From Aquabacterium humicola (GTDB taxonomy: Bacteria > Pseudomonadota > Gammaproteobacteria > Burkholderiales > Burkholderiaceae_C): a stretch of 64,000 bases of DNA. The DNA lies in contig NZ_JARGNB010000003.1 in assembly GCF_030167915.1 (NCBI RefSeq), forward strand, positions 496,001 to 560,000, given 5' to 3'. The notes below the pieces were generated by a model, which had not been told where the DNA came from, did not search any database, and saw only the letters and a program-made list of their open reading frames with translations. Shown here piece after piece: positions 21,724 through 31,947 of this stretch (within the stretch, counting starts at the first letter, position 1; every line of letters starts with the position of its first letter). The translations under genes were made by a program, and so were the position numbers.

Positions 21724-23466
21724 ATGGACCCTGCGCCTTCGCCTTTGCCCTCGCCGCCGCCGCCGGCGGCGTCCCGCCGCGCCGCCTTCGCCGCGGCGCT
21801 GCAGTCGCTGAAGTGGCGCCTGACCGCCGGCACGCTGCTGGCGTTGACGCTCGGGCTGCTGGCGCTGGGCGCGGCGCTGCTCGGGCGCGCGGGGCAGGAC
21901 ACGGTCGACGCCCAGCGGGTCTACGAGATCGGCGATGCCGCGCAGACCGCCGCGGTGCTGTCGCGCCGGGTGATCGAGCAGCAGCGTGCGCTGCAGGCGG
22001 TGGCGGGCCGGCTCGACGCCCGGATGCTCGACGACGATACGAGGCTCTTCGGATTCTTCGCCGACCAGCCGCTGCTGCTGTCGATGTTCCACCAGCTCGC
22101 GGTCACCGGCGTCGACGGCCACGCGCGGCTGCGCCACGATGCGCGCGGCCTGCACCGCGCGCCGCTGTACCTGGGCGACAGCGACCAGCTGCGCCAGACC
22201 GTCGCCGAAGGCCGCCCGCTGATCTCGCCGCCGCTGCCCGGCAGGATGAGCCGGCGCGCGCCGCCCGAAGGCGACGAAGGCACCGGCGAGCCGATCGTCG
22301 TGCTGACGCAGCCGCTGGCCAACGCCTCAGGGGTGTACGGCGTGATGGTCGGCACCGTGCAGCTGGTGCATCGCGAGCTGCTGGCGGACCTGGTGGACTT
22401 CAAGCGCGAGGACGGCCGCGCGCTGATGGTCGTCACCGATGGCGAGGGCCGCATCCTGGTGCACCCGGATTCGACGCGGCTGCTGAAGCCGCTGGCCGAC
22501 GAACCACACTTCGCGCAGGCCCATGCGCGCTGGGTGGCCGCCGGCCGTCCGATCGAGCCGGCCGGACTGAGCTTCGAGCAGCCGGGCGCGCTGGTCACCG
22601 CCGCCGGCGTCGCCGGCCCCGACTGGGTGGTGTGGCGCGCGCTGCCGGAAGACCAGCTGCTGGCGCCGCTGCAGGCCGCGCGCGGCTTCGCGCTGGCCTG
22701 GGGCGGCGGCCTGCTGGCCGCGATGGCGCTGATGATCCTGGGCCTGATCGGACTCGAGCTGCGGCCGCTGGCGCGACTGGAGCGCCGCGCGAGGCTGCTG
22801 TTCGACGGCGCGCTGCCGCCCGGCGCCGGCTGGCCCGCCGCACGCGGCGAGATCGGCAGCCTGGCCGCGGTGCTGAAGCAGGCGGCGATCGACCGTGCCG
22901 AGCTCGAGGCCCGCAACCGCCAGACGCTGCGCCGGCTGGAGTGGTCGGCGACCCACGACGCACTGACCGGCCTGGCCAACCGAGAAGCCCTCGACGCGCG
23001 CCTGGCGCAGCTGTTCGAGGCCCGCGCGCTAGCAGCCGATGGCGATGAGCCGCCCGCCCGGACGGCCCTGGTGGCCATCGACCTCGACCGCTTCAAGCCG
23101 ATCAACGACCACGCCGGCCATGCCGCCGGCGACGAGGTGCTGAAGGCGGTGGCGACGGCGATCGCCGGTTGCGTGCGCGCGGGCGACCTGGTCGCGCGCA
23201 CCGGCGGCGACGAGTTCGCGGTGTTGCTCGAGCGCTGCGGCGGCGACGGCGCACAGCGCGTCGCCGACGAGATCCGGCGCGCGATCGTGCGCCTGGCGGT
23301 GCCCTGGCAGCAGCGCGTGCTGCACGTGGGCGCGAGCGTCGGCGTGGCGCCGCTGGAGGACGACATCACCGACACCGACCACTGGAAGCAGGCCGCGGAC
23401 ATCGCGTGTTATGCAGCGAAGGCCGCCGGACGCGGCGGTCATCGGACCAGCCCGATCACGCGGTGA
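21724..23466 (+). CDS. membrane-bound diguanylate cyclase with periplasmic sensor
   Basis: 580 aa. TM1 is near residues 32-52, a ~280-residue periplasmic region of Cache type lies between (VVLTQPLANASGVYGVMVGT, then VTDGEGRILVHPDS), TM2 is near 320-342, and a GGDEF domain fills about 400-575. The catalytic signature GGDEF is intact in ARTGGDEFAVL, and the inhibitory RxxD site (RAGD) lies five residues before it. It should make cyclic di-GMP in response to a small external ligand. Start ATG at 21724. Its 3' end overlaps the convergent PAP2 gene by 11 bases. Confidence 0.92.
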   Translation: MDPAPSPLPSPPPPAASRRAAFAAALQSLKWRLTAGTLLALTLGLLALGAALLGRAGQDTVDAQRVYEIGDAAQTAAVLSRRVIEQQRALQAVAGRLDARMLDDDTRLFGFFADQPLLLSMFHQLAVTGVDGHARLRHDARGLHRAPLYLGDSDQLRQTVAEGRPLISPPLPGRMSRRAPPEGDEGTGEPIVVLTQPLANASGVYGVMVGTVQLVHRELLADLVDFKREDGRALMVVTDGEGRILVHPDSTRLLKPLADEPHFAQAHARWVAAGRPIEPAGLSFEQPGALVTAAGVAGPDWVVWRALPEDQLLAPLQAARGFALAWGGGLLAAMALMILGLIGLELRPLARLERRARLLFDGALPPGAGWPAARGEIGSLAAVLKQAAIDRAELEARNRQTLRRLEWSATHDALTGLANREALDARLAQLFEARALAADGDEPPARTALVAIDLDRFKPINDHAGHAAGDEVLKAVATAIAGCVRAGDLVARTGGDEFAVLLERCGGDGAQRVADEIRRAIVRLAVPWQQRVLHVGASVGVAPLEDDITDTDHWKQAADIACYAAKAAGRGGHRTSPITR

Positions 23467-24283
23467 AGCTCGCGCTGGCGCCGCACGATACCGCGCTGCT
23501 GCCCTCCGACCGGCTGCCCGCGCCGGTGCCGGCCTGAGCGGTCGCCCGCGCCGTGAAGCGCCGCAGGCCTTGCTGCGGCGCGAATCGCCGCGTGCCGTGG
23601 TGAAGCGCCGCGCTCAGCGTCCAGCAGATCCACGCCGTCCACAGCGGGTGGCTCGGGAAGTGCGCGCCGCGCACCACCTGCACGCCACCCAGCAGCAGGC
23701 CGGCGAGCACCGTGGCGCCAAGCCAGCGCCGCGCGGCCCGCGGCGCATGGCCGCGCAGCGCGAACCAGCCGCCGACGAAGCTGAAGGCGGTCGACGCATG
23801 GCCTGACGGGAAACAGCCGCCGGGTCCGCCGTCGACCCGGCCCGGCCACCAGTGCGGCACATGGCGCAGCACGGTGCCGCCGAACTCGGCCAGTGTCCAC
23901 GGGCAGCTCGTCGCGCTGGCATGTTTCATCAGCGGCACCACCACCGCGCACGACAGCGTGGCGGCCAGCCAGCGCAGGCGTTCGCTGCGGCTGAGGCCGC
24001 GTGCGAATGGCCACGGCTTCCAGACGTTGGCGGCCAGGGCCGCGACGGCCAGCCAGCCGGCGCCGCGCGCGCCGTCGTGCAGCACGGTCGACAGCAGCCA
24101 GTGCTCGCGCCACGGGAAACCGTGCGCCGAGCCGAAGTGCCGCATCACCGCGAGGTCCACGCCCGCGAGGTCCCAGGCGCCGATCAGCAGCGCGGCGACG
24201 AGCGCGATCGCCGCGTCGCGCCCTGCGGCGGCGGACGGACCGGCGCTTCCCGGCGGCGGGGCGGCCGGGCTCAGTGCCGGCAT
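23456..24283 (-). CDS. PAP2-family membrane phosphatase
   Basis: 275 aa with about five to six membrane helices. The three phosphatase motifs are recognisable: KHASATSCPW (first, with Cys in place of the usual Arg before Pro), CFPSGHASTAFSF (second) and RGAHFPSHPLWTAW (third). LpxT- or LpxE-like enzymes of this family act on lipid A or undecaprenyl phosphates at the periplasmic face. Start MPALSPAAPP at 24283 overlaps the EptA-like gene by 13 bases, so the two are cotranscribed, which supports a role in lipid A or polyprenyl-phosphate remodelling. Confidence 0.88.
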   Translation of the reverse strand: MPALSPAAPPPGSAGPSAAAGRDAAIALVAALLIGAWDLAGVDLAVMRHFGSAHGFPWREHWLLSTVLHDGARGAGWLAVAALAANVWKPWPFARGLSRSERLRWLAATLSCAVVVPLMKHASATSCPWTLAEFGGTVLRHVPHWWPGRVDGGPGGCFPSGHASTAFSFVGGWFALRGHAPRAARRWLGATVLAGLLLGGVQVVRGAHFPSHPLWTAWICWTLSAALHHGTRRFAPQQGLRRFTARATAQAGTGAGSRSEGSSAVSCGASASFTA

Positions 24284-25971
24284 GGCGCCGCGATGTCCAG
24301 CGCCGGCTCGTAGGCCGTGGTCCGCACGTCCAGCAGCCCGAGCGTGGTGTGGAACAGGTCGTCGTGCGTCCACGGCCGCGCCGTCTGCGCCGCGAGGCAG
24401 CCGCGGTCGAGTCCGGTGCTGGCCAGCAGCCCGGGCGACAGCCACCAGACCATCGGCACCCGCGTCTGCACGTCGGGCGCGATGGCGTAGGGCACCCCGT
24501 GCAGGTACAGGCCGTTCTCGCCCAGCGATTCGCCGTGGTCCGACAGGTACACGAGGCCGGTGTCGAAACGCGCCTGCTGCGAGACCAGCCAGCGCACGGT
24601 CTGCGCGAGCACCTGGTCGGTGTAGAGCAGCGCGTTGTCGTAGGCGTTGACGATCTGCTCGCGGCTGCAGCGGCGCAGCTCCGGGGTCTCGCAGGCCGGC
24701 TCGAAGCGGCGCAGCGCAGCGGGATAACGCGCGTGGTACGCGGGTCCGTGGTTGCCCAGCATGTGCAGCACCACCAGCTGGTCGCCGCGCGCCGGATCGG
24801 CCCCGGCCTGCAGCGCCGGCAGCAGCGCCTCGTCGAGGCAGCGGTCGCCGTCGCACAGCGCCGGCTGCGACGCCGCGTCGAGCCGCTGCTGCGCCAGGCC
24901 TTCGCAGACGCCTTTGCAGCCGGACTGGTTGTCGATCCAGCGCACCTGCACGCCGGCGCGCGCGGCCACGTGCAGCAGCGAGTCGCTGCCGCGGATGCGC
25001 GCCTCGTCGTAGTCGCGCCGGCCGATCGCCGCGAACATGCAGGGCAGCGAGGTCTCGGTATTGGTGCCGCAGGCGCGCACGTCGCGGAAGTTCAGCACGT
25101 CCAGCGCCGCCAGCTCTGGCGTGGTCTGGCGGGCATAACCGCTCAGCCCCCAGTTGGCCGCGCGCGCGGTCTCGCCGACCACCAGCACCAGCAGCAGCGG
25201 CTTCGAGCGCGCGGCGGCGATCGGCCCGCGGTGGGCGTCGGCGCCGACCACCCGGCGCGCGGCCGGCGCGGCGGCCGCCGGCGTCGCGAGCGCGCGGCCG
25301 GCGGAGTACAGCAGGTTGGCCGGCGTCACCCGGTAGCGCAGCTCGCGCTGGTTGCGCATCAGCGCCGCGACGTCGCCGAAGCTGGCCCACAGCGGCAGCA
25401 GCAGCGCCAGCAGCGCCAGCGCCGCGAGCGCCGCGCGCGCGGCCAACGCGCGCCGCCAGGGCCGCACCACGAGCTCGACGCGCGCCAGCAGCAGCAGCGG
25501 CAGGCCGGCGGTCAGTAGCAGGTGACCCAGCAGGTCGGCGCCGAGCAGCTCGCGGGCCTCGGCCCAGTTGGTGTGCAGCACGTTGCGCAGCATCGTCGGG
25601 TCGAGGTAGCTGCCGAAGCGGTCGATGGCATGCCCGGCCACCGCCGCGGCGACCACCAGCAGCGCCAGCAGCGGCCGCGCCAGGCGCCGGTGCAGCAGCG
25701 GCGCCAGCAGCAGCGCGTGCAGCGCGGCGAGCATCGTCACCAGCGCGAGCGCAAAACCCCAGGTGCCCGGCTGCGACGCCGTCCGGCCGGCCAGCGCATC
25801 GGCCAGGAAGCGGGTGTTGCAGGCCAGCGCGAAATACAGCGCCACCGCCAGCAGCAGCTGGTCGCTCGACAGGCGCAGCCGGCGTCGCCACCAGGACGGC
25901 AGCCACGTGCTGCCGGCAGGCCGGGCGGGCGTTTCGGGCGCCAGCGGCGCGGAGAACGGGGAGGCGGGCAT
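24271..25971 (-). CDS. eptA: phosphoethanolamine transferase, EptA/MCR type
   Basis: 566 aa. Residues 1-195 hold five hydrophobic segments; the rest is a periplasmic alkaline-phosphatase-fold domain. The nucleophile is Thr305 in ACGTNTETSLPCMF. Metal-ligand landmarks are VLVVGETARAANWGL, LGNHGPAY and YLSDHGESLGENG. The family transfers phosphoethanolamine from phosphatidylethanolamine to lipid A, lowering negative charge. Start ATG at 25971; a PmrA-type box sits only 25 bases upstream, implying a very short leader or a start further in. Downstream it overlaps the PAP2 phosphatase gene. Confidence 0.9.
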   Translation of the reverse strand: MPASPFSAPLAPETPARPAGSTWLPSWWRRRLRLSSDQLLLAVALYFALACNTRFLADALAGRTASQPGTWGFALALVTMLAALHALLLAPLLHRRLARPLLALLVVAAAVAGHAIDRFGSYLDPTMLRNVLHTNWAEARELLGADLLGHLLLTAGLPLLLLARVELVVRPWRRALAARAALAALALLALLLPLWASFGDVAALMRNQRELRYRVTPANLLYSAGRALATPAAAAPAARRVVGADAHRGPIAAARSKPLLLVLVVGETARAANWGLSGYARQTTPELAALDVLNFRDVRACGTNTETSLPCMFAAIGRRDYDEARIRGSDSLLHVAARAGVQVRWIDNQSGCKGVCEGLAQQRLDAASQPALCDGDRCLDEALLPALQAGADPARGDQLVVLHMLGNHGPAYHARYPAALRRFEPACETPELRRCSREQIVNAYDNALLYTDQVLAQTVRWLVSQQARFDTGLVYLSDHGESLGENGLYLHGVPYAIAPDVQTRVPMVWWLSPGLLASTGLDRGCLAAQTARPWTHDDLFHTTLGLLDVRTTAYEPALDIAAPCRH

Positions 25972-25995
25972 CGGCCGGTATCGTCGGCCCCCGGG

Positions 25996-26012
25996 CTTAA
26001 GGCCGGATTAAG
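25996..26012 (-). promoter_or_regulatory. PmrA-type direct-repeat box before eptA
   Basis: On the minus strand the sequence reads CTTAAT-CCGGC-CTTAAG, two hexamers spaced 11 bp apart, which fits the published PmrA box (YTTAAK-N5-YTTAAK) of lipid A modification genes. It ends 25 bases before the eptA start. No pmrAB genes are visible in this window. Confidence 0.55.
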
Positions 26013-26075
26013 CGTCGTCAGACGGCCGCCCGCGGCGCCTTGACATCGCGCAATCGCGGCCGCTCCGTGCGGTGG

Positions 26076-26094
26076 CTTGATGTTGTCTTGATGC
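26076..26094 (+). promoter_or_regulatory. direct-repeat box before the kdp leader relic
   Basis: CTTGATG-TTGT-CTTGATGC, two identical heptamers with an 11-bp period, about 80 bases upstream of the ATG at 26176. Spacing and sequence resemble the boxes before kup (28153-28172) and the kdpD-like gene (30566-30585). Probably the operator of the lost operon. Confidence 0.4.
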
Positions 26095-26175
26095 GCGACC
26101 CCGGTCATTTATCGCCATCTTGAGACGCCGGTTCCTGGTATCCCGGCCATCGGAATCCAGATGGAAGGGTGTGAC

Positions 26176-26215
26176 ATGGACCTGGCCTGCATCGCGCTGT
26201 TCGCCGTGCTCTGGC
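26176..26215 (+). pseudogene. 5' relic of a kdp-operon leader gene
   Basis: An ATG with upstream GAAGGG opens [14 protein letters not shown], a short hydrophobic start like the tiny membrane peptides that precede or form KdpF. The hydrophobic stretch ends at the point where the kup stop codon begins on the other strand (26216-26218). After that the frame runs 17 more codons through antisense kup sequence and stops at 26268. It looks like the 5' stump of a plus-strand kdp operon. The resemblance to KdpF-type peptides is from memory and the piece is short, so this is tentative. Confidence 0.4.
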
Positions 26216-28108
26216 TCAGATCTGCACACGCGATCCGAGCTCGACCACCGCGTTGTCCGGCAGCCTGAAGAACTCGGCCACGCTGCTCGCGTTGCGGCTC
26301 ATCGCGGCAAACAGCCGCTCGCGCCACCCCGCCATCCCGGTGCCGCGTGTCGGCACCACGGTTTCGCGGCTGAGGAAGTAGCTCGTCTCGAACGGCGGCA
26401 CCTGCAGGCCGTGCGCTTCGGCGAGCGCGAGCGCCTTCGGCACGTCCGGCGACTGCATGAACCCGAAGTGCAGCGTGACGCGCCAGAACCCGCGCCCCAG
26501 CGGCGCGACTTCGATGCGGTCGTCCAGGCCAACCCACGGCACGTCGCGGAAGTTCACCGTCAGGACGACGTTGCGCTCGTGCAGCACCTGGTTGTGCTTG
26601 AGGTTGTGCAGCAACGCCTGCGGAACGGTCTGCGCGTCGGCCACCGGGTAGACCGCGGTCCGGCCGGCGCGCGACACGCTCGCCGGATCGAGCGAGTCGA
26701 CGAAGTCCTGCAGTTCCACGCCGTCGCTGCGCAGGCTCTGCAGCAGCAGGCTGCGCCCGCGCGCCCAGGTGCTCATCAGCGCGAACAAGGCCAGGCCCAG
26801 CGCGATCGGGAACCAGCCGCCGTCGATGAACTTCGCCGCGCAGCTGATGAACAGCACCAGATCGATGGCGAGGAAGAAGCTCGTCGAGGCGATCGCCAGC
26901 GGGCGCGGCAACCTCCAGCTTTCACGAATCACGACGTACGTCAGCGCCGTCGTGATCACCATGGTCAGCGTGACGGCGATGCCGTAGGCACCGGCGAGGG
27001 CGGATGTGCTGCCGAAGGCCGTCACGACCGCCGCGACACCGGCCAGCAAGGCCCAGTTGACCGCCGGCATATAGATCTGGCCGGCCTCCCGGGCCGACGT
27101 GTAGCGCAGCGCCATACGGGGCAGGAAGCCGAGTTGGATCGCCTGCTTGGTCACCGAGTACGCGCCCGAGATGACCGCCTGTGACGCGATGATCGCCGCC
27201 AGAGTGGCCAGCACGATCGCGGCCGGTACCCACGACGACGGGAACTGGCGGAAGAAGGGATTCTCTGCGGCGGTCGGATCGGCCAGCAGCAGCGCGCCCT
27301 GGCCGAGGTAGTTCAGGGCCAGCGATGGCAACACCAGGCCGCTCCAGGCCAGGCGGATCGGGCGCCGCCCGAAGTGCCCCATGTCGGCGTACAGCGCCTC
27401 GGCGCCGGTGATCGCGAGCACGATCGCCCCGACCGCGGCAAAGAAGTGCCAGCCACGCGTCGACAGGAACTGCCAGGCGTGCAGCGGGTTCAGCGCGGCC
27501 AGGATGGCCGGCTCGCGCGCGATGTGCACGATGCCGCTGACGGCGAGCGTGGCGAACCACAGCACGATGATCGGACCGAAGGCCTTGCCGACTTGTGCGG
27601 TGCCGAAGCGCTGGACCGCGAACAGCGCGACCAGGATCGCCAGTGCGGCCGGCACGACATAGGGCTCGAGCCCTGGCGCGACGACCTCGAGGCCCTCCAT
27701 TGCGCCGAGCACCGAGATCGCCGGGGTGATCACGCCGTCGCCGTAGAACAGCGTCGCGCCGAACAGCCCGAGGATCAGCAGCACGCGCCGCAGCGCCGGC
27801 TTGTGCTGGACCGCGTGCGCAGCCAGCGCGGTCAGCGCGAGCACCCCGCCTTCGCCGCGGTTGTCCGCGCGCAGCACGAGGATCACGTACTTGAGGGTGA
27901 CGACGAGCATCAGCGCCCAGAAGATCGTCGAGCAGGCGCCGATCAGGTGCTGCGCATCGATCGGCACGCCGGTGGCGGGGAGAAACACCTCCTTGATCGT
28001 GTACAGCGGGCTGGTGCCGATGTCGCCGTAGACGACGCCGAGCGCAGCCAGCGTCAGCGCGGCGGTGCCTTGACGTGGCGCGTGATCGGCAGTGTTGGCC
28101 GTGGTCAT
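26216..28108 (-). CDS. kup: Kup-family potassium uptake permease
   Basis: 630 aa, the family's normal length. About 12 helices fill residues 15-445, followed by a ~180-residue cytoplasmic domain. Diagnostic stretches are [18 protein letters not shown] at the N-terminus, [18 protein letters not shown] and [19 protein letters not shown]. It imports K+ with protons. ATG at 28108 gives the family-like N-terminus; a frame to 28156 adds 16 unlikely residues. A direct-repeat box lies 45-64 bases upstream. Downstream the stop abuts the kdp leader relic. Neighbouring kdpE/kdpD-like genes imply that it is regulated by potassium need. Confidence 0.95.
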
Positions 28109-28152
28109 TGGTGAGGGTGAGCCGTGAACAGGCGGCCAGCATGCCGTTGGCG

Positions 28153-28172
28153 GCATCAGGAACGCATAAGTG
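28153..28172 (-). promoter_or_regulatory. direct-repeat operator candidate before kup
   Basis: On the minus strand CACTTATGC-GTTC-CTGATGC shows two heptamers with an 11-bp period. Fourteen of the first 15 bases are identical to the element before the kdpD-like gene (CACTTATGCSTTCCT). It lies 45-64 bases before the kup start, a suitable place for an activator of the OmpR/KdpE family. Confidence 0.5.
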
Positions 28173-28201
28173 TTCCTGGTACGCCGCAGCCCTGCCGCTG
28201 A

Positions 28202-28936
28202 TCAGCCGGGCGGCTCGGCGAGCCGGTAGCCGACGCCCGGCTCCGTCAGCAGCCGTTGCGGATCGGCCGGGTCGGCCTCCAACTTCGCGCGCAGCTGCGC
28301 CATGTACAGCCGCAGGTAGTGGGTCTGCTCGACGTGCTCCGGTCCCCACACGTCCTGCAGGAGCTGACGGTGGGTGACCACGCGGCCCGCGCTGCGCACG
28401 AGCCGTGCGAGCAACTTGAACTCGGTCGGCGTCAGGTGCACCGGAGCACCGTCAAGCCGCACCGCATGCGCTGCGATATCGATCTCCAGTCCGGTATGGC
28501 CGTAGTGAGTGACGGCCGGAGCGACCAGCGTGCCCCGGTGGCGCAACGCGACGCGCATGCGAGCCAGCAGCTCGCCGACGCCGAACGGCTTCACCAGGTA
28601 GTCGTCAGCCCCGGCGTCGAGCAGGCGAATCTTCTGCCCGTCGCTCTCGCGCGCCGAGATGACGATGAGCGGCGTACCGTGACGCCGCCGCAGCGCGGCC
28701 AGCAGTGCTTCGCCGTCCCCGTCGGGCAGGCCCAGGTCCAGCAGCACCAGGTCGAGGCCGGGGCGGTCGCCGGGGGCCTGCGCCGCATCGCCGGCGGCGC
28801 GCCGGCCGTTGAGCAGCGCGAAGCCTTCCGACAGGCTGGCCGCGGTGTAGACCACGTAGCCTTCGACGCGCAGCGCGTCGCTCAGCATCGAGCGAAGCTC
28901 GCGATCGTCCTCGACGAGCAGGACTTGCAGGCTCAA
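28202..28936 (-). CDS. KdpE-like response regulator
   Basis: 244 aa OmpR-family regulator. The receiver spans residues 1-135, with Asp67 in LVLLDLGLPDGDG and Lys in YLVKPFGVGELLAR; it contains an extra ~15-residue loop (GDAAQAPGDRPG) after helix 2. The winged-helix output (about 145-242) closely follows KdpE: LTPTEFKLL, VVTHRQLLQDVWGPEHVEQT, HYLRLYMAQLRAKLE and TEPGVGYRL. The start is TTG at 28936 in a TTGA overlap with the kinase stop. It lies 94 bp upstream of kup on the same strand. No kdpABC genes are present, so kup is its most likely target. Confidence 0.85.
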   Translation of the reverse strand: MSLQVLLVEDDRELRSMLSDALRVEGYVVYTAASLSEGFALLNGRRAAGDAAQAPGDRPGLDLVLLDLGLPDGDGEALLAALRRRHGTPLIVISARESDGQKIRLLDAGADDYLVKPFGVGELLARMRVALRHRGTLVAPAVTHYGHTGLEIDIAAHAVRLDGAPVHLTPTEFKLLARLVRSAGRVVTHRQLLQDVWGPEHVEQTHYLRLYMAQLRAKLEADPADPQRLLTEPGVGYRLAEPPG

Positions 28937-30510
28937 GAGCGCTCTTCCTCTTCGACTTGGCCGTTGCCGGGCCGCGGCGGCGGCGCTTCCAGGGCAGGCA
29001 GCCGGCACTCGAAGCTCGCGCCGCCATGGCCACGCGGCCGCAGCGTCAGCTCGCCGCCGTGCGCTCGGGCAATGGCGCGGCACACCGCGAGGCCGACACC
29101 CGCACCGCGGCGTGCGGCGTCGCTGGCGTTGGGCGGACCGCGCTGGAACACCTCGAAGATGCGCTCGCGCTCGGCCGGCGGCACGCCGGGGCCCCGATCG
29201 CGCACCGCGAACGTCACCCCGTCCGCCTGGCCCCGCACCAGCAGCTCGATCGCACCGTCGCTGTACTTCAGCGCGTTGTCGACGAGGTTCTCGAGCAGTT
29301 GCGTCAGCAGCAGTGCGTCGCAGCGCAGCAGCGGCAGGCCGGGCTCGAGCCGCGCCTTCACGCGCCGCGCATGGTCGTGCGTGCGCACGCGGCGCAGCAC
29401 CGCGCCGACGATCTCCTCGGCCGACTCCCAATCGGTGCGCAGCTGCACCCCGGGCGCATCGAGCCGCGCCAGCTGCAACGTGTTGTCGGTCAGGCGCTTG
29501 AGCTGCCCGCACTCGTCGACGATCGCGCGCGCCAGCTTCTGGCGTTGCTCGGGCGCCAGCCGGTCGCCCTGCTCGAGCAGCGACGAGGCCGAGCCGAGGA
29601 TCGTCGCCAGCGGCGTGCGGTAGTCATGCGAGATCGCCGCCAGCAGCGCATTGCGCACGCCCTGAGTCTGCGCCGCCTGGCGGGCCGCGTCGGCGACACG
29701 CTGCGTCTGGACCTGCTCGAGCACGGCGCCCATCTGATCGCACAGCGCCTGTGCCTGCGCGCGCATCTCGTCGTCCGCCGCCACCGGGTCGTCGAGCTCG
29801 ATCGCCACTGCACCAAACGCCCGCGCGCGGCCTCGCAACGGCAGGTACCACTCCGGCAGCTCTGCATAGCGCCCGGTGCCCGGCCCGAACGGCTGGGCCC
29901 GCCTCGTGCAATGCCAGAGTCCCGAACGCTGGTGCGCTGTCGGCGAGCCCACGATCAGCGCAGCATCGTCGTCGTCGCTCGATGGCAGCGCATCCTTGAG
30001 CAACAACATCAGCGGCGCCTTCCCCAGCAACTGCGCAAGCGTCGTGGCAAGGATGTCGGCGCGCCGGGTCGGATCGTCGGTGTCGCGCAGCGCCTGGGCC
30101 AAGCTGCGCAGTTGCTCGGTCCGGCGCGCATGCTGCCGTGCGGCGTCCGCCAGCACGCGCTGGCGAGCCATCACGCCGGCGACGATCCAACAAACGACGA
30201 GCATCGCGGCCAGCAGCAAGGCGTCCTGCCGCAGGTCGACCGAGAACGTGTAGCGCGGGGGCACGAACAGCCAGTTGAATGCGGTGACCGATGCGGCGGA
30301 CATGGCCAGCGAGGCCCAGATCGGCAGCCACAGCGATGCGACGGCGGCCCCAAGCACCAGCACCATCGCGAGGTTGGCAAGGTCCACGTATCCGTCGAGG
30401 GCGAGCATCGCCGTCCACGCACCGATCCATGCGAGCAACGGCAGCAGCAGGCGCGAGACGGAACTCCTCAGCGCCCGAGGGGGAGTTGGCGGGGTCATCG
30501 GTGGTTCCAT
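28933..30510 (-). CDS. KdpD-like histidine kinase lacking the N-terminal KdpD/Usp sensor
   Basis: 525 aa, against ~900 for full KdpD. It begins directly with the four-helix membrane block of KdpD (about residues 20-116, including AFNWLFVPPRYTFSVDLRQD), then a GAF-like region (about 140-270), the H-box with His295 in ISHDYRTPLATILGSASSLL, N-box LLENLVDNALKYS and G-boxes RDRGPGVP and GAGVGLAVCRAIA. The cytoplasmic N-terminal nucleotide-binding KdpD domain and the Usp domain are absent. The start is ATG at 30510 (30498 possible). It overlaps the kdpE-like gene by 4 bases. A direct-repeat box precedes it. Confidence 0.87.
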   Translation of the reverse strand: MEPPMTPPTPPRALRSSVSRLLLPLLAWIGAWTAMLALDGYVDLANLAMVLVLGAAVASLWLPIWASLAMSAASVTAFNWLFVPPRYTFSVDLRQDALLLAAMLVVCWIVAGVMARQRVLADAARQHARRTEQLRSLAQALRDTDDPTRRADILATTLAQLLGKAPLMLLLKDALPSSDDDDAALIVGSPTAHQRSGLWHCTRRAQPFGPGTGRYAELPEWYLPLRGRARAFGAVAIELDDPVAADDEMRAQAQALCDQMGAVLEQVQTQRVADAARQAAQTQGVRNALLAAISHDYRTPLATILGSASSLLEQGDRLAPEQRQKLARAIVDECGQLKRLTDNTLQLARLDAPGVQLRTDWESAEEIVGAVLRRVRTHDHARRVKARLEPGLPLLRCDALLLTQLLENLVDNALKYSDGAIELLVRGQADGVTFAVRDRGPGVPPAERERIFEVFQRGPPNASDAARRGAGVGLAVCRAIARAHGGELTLRPRGHGGASFECRLPALEAPPPRPGNGQVEEEERS

Positions 30511-30565
30511 GTGCGGACGGGCCTCGCGATGCGAGCAACCGTTGCAGTCGACGCTAGCAGGGTCG

Positions 30566-30585
30566 GCGTTAGGAAGGCATAAGTG
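30566..30585 (-). promoter_or_regulatory. direct-repeat operator candidate before the kdpD-like gene
   Basis: Minus-strand CACTTATGC-CTTC-CTAACGC, two heptamers with an 11-bp period, 56-75 bases before the start at 30510. It is nearly identical to the box before kup, which suggests that the system controls itself and kup through the same site. Confidence 0.5.
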
Positions 30586-30908
30586 GAGCGGAGTACCTGA
30601 GTGCCTGCTCGAGGCCGCCGCTCTGGGACGCTTTCCTTGCCCGCGACACCAGCTGCCAGCGGCAGGGACCTCCGCCACTCCTCGGTCGCCGCGAGAACCT
30701 GTGCCCACCGATCAGCACGACAAGGATCGAGGGCGATGAAACCGAACCTCCGCAGGCCTCCGGCACCGGGTGCAGCCCATGCGCAGTCATGTGGGCCCCG
30801 CGTCCGATTCGTGGCCACGACGGCGATCTTCATCACCGGGGCAATTTACACGTAGAACGTGGGTTCAGCCGCAACCTGCATTCCTGCAAGTCTGTCTCAG
30901 AAGGATTC

Positions 30909-30953
30909 TTCCGTCTGACCGAGACCGGCATCGGCTACCGCTTCGTGCCTTGA
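30909..30953 (+). pseudogene. 3' relic of a kdpE gene
   Basis: Plus-strand codons read FRLTETGIGYRFVP and then TGA. TETGIGYRF is the characteristic C-terminal end of KdpE (the E. coli protein ends in TETGIGYRFML). No KdpE-like sequence continues upstream of about 30909 in this frame. It differs from the end of the intact KdpE-like protein nearby (TEPGVGYRLAEPPG) and lies on the opposite strand, so it is not a local duplicate of that gene. It lies 29 bp from the stop of the convergent cation-efflux gene. Confidence 0.5.
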
Positions 30954-30981
30954 GCGGCGCCCAGGCCGCTCGCTTCGTCCG

Positions 30982-31947
30982 CTAGGAAGGCGGGCCCTCG
31001 TGGTCGGCGTCGGGCCGCCGCCAGGGGTCGACATGCGTCATCACGTTGAGCACGCGGTGCCGCTGCATCACGCGGCGCCGCGCCTCGACGGCGATCTGAT
31101 GTCCGTCCTCGACGCTCTGGGTGGCCTCCACCTCGATGTGCGCGTCGACGACGATCATGTCGCCCATCCTGCGCGTGCGCAGGTCGTGCACGCCGTGGAT
31201 GCCCGGCGTGCCTTCCAGCGTGCGCCGGATCGCGGCGGCTTCCTCGTCGTCGATGGCGCGGTCCATCAGGTCGTGCAGCGCATCCCAGCCGAAGCTCCAG
31301 CCCATCCTGGCGACCATGAAGCCGACGATGGCCGCGGCGATCGGGTCGAGGATCGGGTAGCCGGCCAGGTTGCCGGCGATGCCGATGCCCACCACCAGCG
31401 ACGAGGCTGCATCCGAGCGGGCATGCCAGGCGTTGGCGACCAGCATGCCCGAGCGCACCCGCTTGGCCACCGCCAGCATGTAGCGGAACAGCAGCTCCTT
31501 GGCCACCAGCGCCGCGCCGGCCACCCACAGCGCGGCCACGTGCACCGGCTGCACGGCCGACGGCTGTTCCAGCTTCACGAAGGCCGACCACAGCATGCCC
31601 GCCCCGACGGCCAGCAGCAGCGCGCCCAGCACCAGCGAGGCCGCGGTTTCGAAGCGCTGGTGGCCGTAGGGATGGCCGGCGTCGGCATCCTTGCGGCTGT
31701 GGTAGTTGGCCAGCAGCACGACGCCGTCGGCCACCAGGTCCGACAGCGAGTGGATGCCGTCGGCAATCAGCCCCTGCGACTTCGCCAGCACGCCGACGAC
31801 AATCTGCACCGCCGTCAGGACCAGGTTGACGGCGATGCTGACACCGGTGCTGCGCGCCGCGGCGGCGGCGCGCTGCGCCGGCGTGTGTTCGGCATCCTCG
31901 CTGTCATCGACGAGGTCGGGCGGGTCGGGCGCGTCGGACGGGGCCAT
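30982..31947 (-). CDS. cation diffusion facilitator (CDF) metal efflux protein
   Basis: 321 aa. Six membrane helices lie between residues 35 and 225, with the metal-site motifs DGIHSLSDLVADG on helix 2 and NAWHARSDAASS on helix 5, the pattern of the FieF/MMT1 branch. The C-terminal cytoplasmic domain (about 235-310) is of the usual beta-alpha-beta type, with MGDMIVVDAHIEVE. It exports Zn2+, Fe2+, Mn2+ or a similar ion in exchange for protons; the exact metal is not predictable here. Start ATG at 31947. Confidence 0.92.
   Translation of the reverse strand: MAPSDAPDPPDLVDDSEDAEHTPAQRAAAAARSTGVSIAVNLVLTAVQIVVGVLAKSQGLIADGIHSLSDLVADGVVLLANYHSRKDADAGHPYGHQRFETAASLVLGALLLAVGAGMLWSAFVKLEQPSAVQPVHVAALWVAGAALVAKELLFRYMLAVAKRVRSGMLVANAWHARSDAASSLVVGIGIAGNLAGYPILDPIAAAIVGFMVARMGWSFGWDALHDLMDRAIDDEEAAAIRRTLEGTPGIHGVHDLRTRRMGDMIVVDAHIEVEATQSVEDGHQIAVEARRRVMQRHRVLNVMTHVDPWRRPDADHEGPPS

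Follow-up and report, generated by a model that had tools for sequence, protein, structure and literature searches.

Remnants of a kdp Operon on Both Sides of a Short kdpD-kdpE-kup Cassette in Aquabacterium humicola

Gene Content of the Locus

The window, that is, the whole stretch of 64,000 nucleotides of Aquabacterium humicola DNA analysed here, contains a potassium uptake locus between an eptA-like gene of the phosphoethanolamine transferase family (24271..25971) and a CDF cation efflux gene (30982..31947), both on the minus strand and both assigned by family and domain matches. Within 23456-25971 the eptA-like gene is followed by a PAP2 phosphatase gene, and the same pair was seen at 20 of the 29 other EptA loci examined.

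Three genes lie together between these flanks on the minus strand (26216-30510), in the reading order short kdpD, kdpE-like, kup. The kup gene (26216..28156, likely start at 28108) is complete, as judged by Pfam, by TIGR00794 and by a C-terminus like that of its relatives. The kdpE-like response regulator gene (28202..28936, TTG start) was recognised by family and domain matches and by alignment, and the short kdpD-like sensor kinase gene (28933..30510) by family and domain matches. A box, CTTATGCGTTCCTGATG, upstream of kup (28154..28170, minus strand) is a candidate operator by its conservation and position, and a pattern search found a second copy, CTTATGCCTTCCTAACG, upstream of kdpD (30567..30583, minus strand). 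Positions 30584..30914, to which no strand is assigned, form a spacer from the cassette promoter to the right-hand stump, without match to kdp genes.

The two edges of this block read in the opposite direction, so that the cassette lies inverted between them. At the left edge, a relic kdp promoter region (26076..26175, plus strand), recognised by a profile of 49 kdp loci and by a covariance model, leads into the first 13-14 codons of a kdp leader peptide (26176..26217, plus strand), which ends abruptly at the kup stop codon. The right edge carries the last 12 codons of a Kdp-type kdpE, LTETGIGYRFVP, with the stop codon (30915..30953, plus strand), identified by a kdpE-end profile and by residue comparison.

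The sequence-only reading of this DNA had reported kup, a kdpE-like gene and a short kdpD-like gene together on the minus strand with no kdpFABC. This is correct, and kdpA is absent from the entire Aquabacterium humicola genome (0 of 1 genome; 7.39 Mb, rated 100% complete). The gene is present in three of the 21 genomes of the genus (G007, G008 and G009) and in 169 of the 399 genomes of the family sample. Rfam at gathering thresholds gave no match, and neither did a scan with sigma-70 and terminator consensus patterns. Among the repeat families covered, 20 of 28 direct and 25 of 33 inverted ones, no terminal repeats were seen at the cassette edges.

Proteins of the Cassette

In the short KdpD, Pfam finds only DUF4118, HisKA and HATPase_c. 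The membrane part and the histidine kinase domains of KdpD kinases are present, and the N-terminal KdpD domain with its Walker motifs is missing; the score against NF007793, the KdpD sensor kinase family, stays below the cut-off (239 bits, cut-off 1123). The gene had been called truncated; however, it is intact, with a length normal for its subfamily. When residues 1-400 of KdpD from G007, a member of the genus, were searched against the 69 cassette loci, no match came up at E up to 1e-3; six of the frames there run to the edge of their stretch.

The N-terminal domain of E. coli KdpD is reported to inhibit KdpFABC via serine phosphorylation of KdpB (PMC11018627). The missing domain would fit a system that serves Kup, with the caveat that kdpA is present in 12 of the 51 kup-linked genomes described below. 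KdpD derivatives without the N-terminal region are reported to respond to K+ limitation but to fail to repress at high K+ (PMC2714519), and therefore incomplete shut-off arises as a question for the cassette as well.

The KdpE-like protein scores 233.4 bits against NF007820, below the cut-off of 325, and this is still the best of the listed families. Residues R193, R200 and T215, which KdpE needs for DNA binding (PMC3264566), are kept in an alignment to E. coli KdpE (4kny, numbered by hand). Kup contains both K_trans domains (PF02705 and PF22776) and scores 552.1 bits against TIGR00794, above the cut-off of 539.6; it misses the stricter NF008015 (694.7 bits, cut-off 883). The genome holds another Kup, 54% identical to that of the cassette.

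A Conserved Box Upstream of kup and kdpD

An element like CTTATGCGTTCCTGATGC, with a 6-5-6 layout, stands upstream of kup in most cassette-bearing genomes of the family. Within 320 nt upstream of kup at 53 kup-linked loci, the relaxed box TATG[CT]-N5-TGA[TC]G was present 43 times and the strict box TTATGC[CG]TTCCTGA[TC]G 34 times, whereas the reversed relaxed pattern was found at none of the 53. Elsewhere in the linked loci the relaxed box occurred 11 times in 687,246 nt, both strands added. Ten of the 53 loci are without the relaxed box, and most of these show near variants by eye. In the whole Aquabacterium humicola genome, TTATGCSTTCCTRAYGC has two perfect matches, one upstream of kup and one upstream of kdpD, and five matches with two mismatches; its reversed control has none. 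At two loci (L069 of G019 and L075 of G018) about 1 kb of other DNA parts kdpE from kup, and the box remains directly upstream of kup.

The box of the window, CTTATG-CGTTC-CTGATG, shares its 6-5-6 layout with the E. coli KdpE operators, given as TTTATA-N5-TTTACA (PMC3264566). The half-sites of the cassette box start with C, in contrast to those of the E. coli type, which start with a T reported there as invariant (PMC3264566). From its conservation and position we infer that the box may be the operator of the cassette's KdpE-like regulator.

Distribution of the Cassette in the Family

With the short KdpD as query and E up to 1e-90 as limit, matches came from 67 of the 399 genomes of the family, Aquabacterium humicola included. 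We examined 69 cassette loci, namely 67 from the 66 other family genomes (G115 has two) and those of G004 and G017 of the genus. A kup gene follows the short kdpDE within 3 kb on the same strand at 51 of the 67 family loci and at 53 of all 69. This linkage is undercounted, because among the 16 unlinked loci that of G350 stops at a contig edge, and in G152, G012 and G224 the box appears 2-3 kb downstream, close to where the stretch ends.

Away from the present locus, the cassette with its box is found in at least 51 of the 399 family genomes, and therefore the presumed capture of Kup came before the exchange seen here. The earlier suggestion that the exchange itself had created this regulatory capture is not supported; the capture of Kup by a Kdp-like system would be old and widespread.

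As to the relation between the two systems, kdpA is rarer in the kup-linked genomes than in those without a short KdpD (12 of 51 against 149 of 332; p 0.004, a value that ignores shared ancestry), and it accompanies 9 of the 16 unlinked short-KdpD loci (p 0.028, likewise ignoring shared ancestry). A rule that the cassette excludes kdp fails on these 12 genomes, and displacement of kdp by the cassette may be a trend, not a rule.

Two further arrangements were seen. In G130 (L264) a complete kdp operon lies about 3.4 kb from a short-kdpD cassette, on the same strand. In G299 (L358:4843-13881) a kdp operon with kdpA, kdpB, kdpC and kdpD, in which kdpE was not found, is directly followed after kdpD by a broken kup with pieces in different frames; the box is absent there.

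Phylogenetic Position of the Cassette

All trees were calculated with FastTree, and the supports are local. In the RpoB trees, which took in 25 of 30 chosen genomes, the sister of Aquabacterium humicola is G020 (support 0.995 for protein, 1.0 for DNA), followed by G007 (0.971 and 0.989) and G004 (0.912 and 0.986), all of one genus. G007, the nearest RpoB neighbour after G020, still has kdp.

The combined KdpD and KdpE tree (67 tips) groups the cassette proteins with those of G350, G360, G115, G158, G369, G330, G186 and G071 (0.996), which belong to genera g96, g119, g139 and g52; three of these neighbours (G115, G158 and G369) are without kup nearby. The Kup tree (49 tips) groups the cassette Kup with those of G360, G330, G071 and G186 (0.997), away from G020. 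Since RpoB keeps its position in its own genus while KdpDE and Kup group with other genera, the cassette appears to be foreign. The conflict between gene trees and core tree that a xenologous displacement would leave is found here.

Remnants of a kdp Operon at Both Edges

We gathered 63 kdp loci, three from the genus and 60 from the family. A peptide of about 30 residues starting with MD precedes kdpF or kdpA in 49 of them, a count that depends on our filter. It is membrane-like and conserved in this position (for example, L239:11233-11374), and three examples stayed without a match in Pfam or NCBIfam (E up to 1), with the KdpF control matching.

From these 49 loci a profile was built of 105 nt before the leader and the first 42 nt of the leader. 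It matches the window at 26076-26215 with an E value of 3.7e-20, reaching model position 146 of 148, and the promoter part without the leader gives 2.5e-12; the second-best hit in the window (E 0.6) falls on the kup box. The leader match runs as far as 26215, one base short of the kup stop codon (26216-26218). Both the leader start at 26176 and its breaking off at this codon, as first proposed from the letters alone, are borne out. The relic promoter carries a direct repeat, TTGATG-TTGTC-TTGATG, at 26077-26093; TTGATG-N5-TTGATG resembles a KdpE operator and may have had this role.

A sequence-only covariance model, made from 36 of the 49 loci with the window left out, was run over the 21 genomes of the genus and the 399 of the family. 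In the whole Aquabacterium humicola genome it finds the scar with E 1.6e-16, the next match having E 0.06. At E up to 0.01 it matches 154 of the 169 family genomes with kdpA and 10 of the 230 without it, and among the latter the match is strong only in Aquabacterium humicola and in G117 (6.2e-16). Eight genomes without kdpA give weak matches (G052, G101, G178, G213, G227, G286, G358 and G407, E 7.7e-6 to 2.9e-3), which are possible further kdp footprints.

At the right edge, the kdpE-end profile of 57 ends matches 30915-30953 (E 5.8e-10). A KdpE C-terminal end on the plus strand had been noticed before; it begins at 30915 and not at 30909. The same profile matches the end of the resident kdpE-like gene (28252-28219, E 4.7e-8), as expected of paralogues, and because it matches both, the E value alone cannot tell which kind of KdpE the stump comes from.

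Both scars lie on the plus strand in operon order, promoter and leader to the left and kdpE end to the right. A tblastn search for further kdp remnants between them, at E up to 10, gave only the kdpE end above background, and blastn of the spacer against the collected loci returned, apart from copies of the spacer itself, a single match of 24 nt (E 0.002).

If kdp once stood here, an intact kdpFABCDE might be expected between the same flanks in relatives. This was not found among the loci examined, in relatives that lack these flanks altogether. Neither the best 80 of at least 571 CDF matches, followed for up to 10 kb on each side, nor 30 EptA loci with flanks of 1.5 kb, drawn from 261 of 399 genomes with a match, showed kdp between eptA and the CDF gene. 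None of the 63 kdp loci has both flanks around kdp, and none of nine loci whose flanking genes were compared with the window shows kdp in this place. In G079 and G190 eptA and PAP2 lie beside kdp, at the kdpE end and in convergent orientation.

Proposed Displacement of kdp and Alternative Explanations

We interpret the locus as an in-place xenologous displacement of kdp by a foreign short kdpD-kdpE-kup cassette, to which we give a probability of about 0.75. In the ancestor, a plus-strand operon of promoter, leader, kdpFABC, kdpD and kdpE would have stood between the eptA and CDF genes. The cassette would then have settled in the opposite orientation in place of nearly all of the operon, of which the promoter, a leader start of 13-14 codons and the final 12 codons of kdpE were spared. 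The short KdpD would probably sense K+ shortage and phosphorylate its KdpE-like partner, which in this form may bind the 6-5-6 direct repeat and switch on kup together with its own operon. That an old plus-strand kdp operon was exchanged for kup under a related regulator had already been suggested, and it agrees with the match of both scars, by the two profiles and by the KdpE end of G007, to kdp operons of relatives.

The most serious alternative, though clearly the less probable one, is a history of two unrelated events: first a deletion of kdp and then, much later, a chance insertion of the cassette into the scar, without functional replacement. Loss of kdp alone does occur. G117 has retained the whole kdp promoter and leader peptide (L357:12127-12257, minus strand) with no kdp gene after the leader within the 19.5 kb examined and without the cassette; the gene after the leader, on the other strand, presumably resembles a sugar kinase. 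This is a second, independent kdp footprint of a different make. The occurrence of the cassette at many other loci also agrees with a chance landing. Such a history, however, makes it a coincidence that the cassette sits precisely between the stumps and that its left junction falls on the kup stop codon, and kdp and the cassette both import K+.

It would be quite improbable that the promoter is the sole genuine kdp relic and that the right stump was copied from the end of the cassette's own kdpE. The 39-nt stump does resemble that end (81% over 31 nt, inverted), and the end profile matches both; the frequent ending TETGVGYRL is common to both kinds (13 Kdp-operon ends and 13 cassette ends). 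The stump itself, however, reads TETGIGYRF, present in two of 57 Kdp-operon ends and none of 69 cassette ends, and the ending YRF occurs in 13 of the 57 against one of the 69. Moreover, 11 of its 12 residues are identical to the last 12 of G007 KdpE, and its profile score is 34.9 bits against 28.9 for the cassette kdpE end.

A misassembly that fused unrelated sequences where the cassette begins and ends is very improbable, as the window is an internal part of a 601,538-base contig and a false join would not leave the two kdp ends flanking the cassette in operon order. Chance similarity in a GC-rich genome can be practically dismissed. The coding stumps are both short, and the relatives examined show no intact kdp in synteny, but the promoter and leader stand far above their runners-up in the window and genome-wide.

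Relation to Known Systems and Biological Meaning

Xenologous in situ gene displacement puts a foreign functional analogue at the place of native genes. The displacement favoured here likewise has a foreign functional analogue at the native site; it differs in that a whole operon would have been replaced by a non-homologous transporter with a paralogous regulator, inverted and with scars at both edges. The scarred in-place exchange of two potassium systems is what is distinctive here.

Compared with the KdpFABC operon and its KdpD/KdpE, the scars match the promoter, leader and kdpE end of that operon, and the cassette has a related regulator and a box of the same 6-5-6 layout; its transporter, however, is Kup, and its KdpD is without the N-terminal domain. 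The cassette Kup shares family and domains with E. coli Kup (TrkD). Unlike the latter, which to our knowledge is not linked to a two-component system, it is the second Kup of its genome and has such a link. Kup is usually regarded as constitutive and of low affinity.

Deinococcus geothermalis is reported to have a KdpD without histidine kinase domains (PMC11018627). Both proteins miss half of the tandem kinase, but the opposite half: the cassette KdpD keeps the histidine kinase and is without the N-terminal serine kinase domain. A natural KdpD of this kind, with no KdpFABC to serve, would be expected from the tandem-kinase model of KdpD (PMC11018627), and the short KdpD makes the model testable by comparison.

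The orphaned kdp promoter might still be active and send transcription into the 3' end of kup from the other strand, although in our estimate this is rather unlikely. If so, and if the cassette KdpE-like regulator recognised the relic repeat, the same regulator would drive kup at the cassette and, at the scar, antisense transcription of kup, kdpE and kdpD, and this loop would be a feedback circuit made by accident in the operon replacement. In such a case the C/T difference in the first base of the half-sites would decide whether the two promoters are insulated from each other.

Word searches of the open-licence PMC literature found no description of a short kdpD-kdpE-kup cassette. The locus of Aquabacterium humicola would be a whole-operon exchange caught with both scars readable, and the family as a whole indicates a widespread regulatory unit, in which Kup stands next to a two-component system of the KdpD/KdpE type that has a conserved candidate operator of its own.
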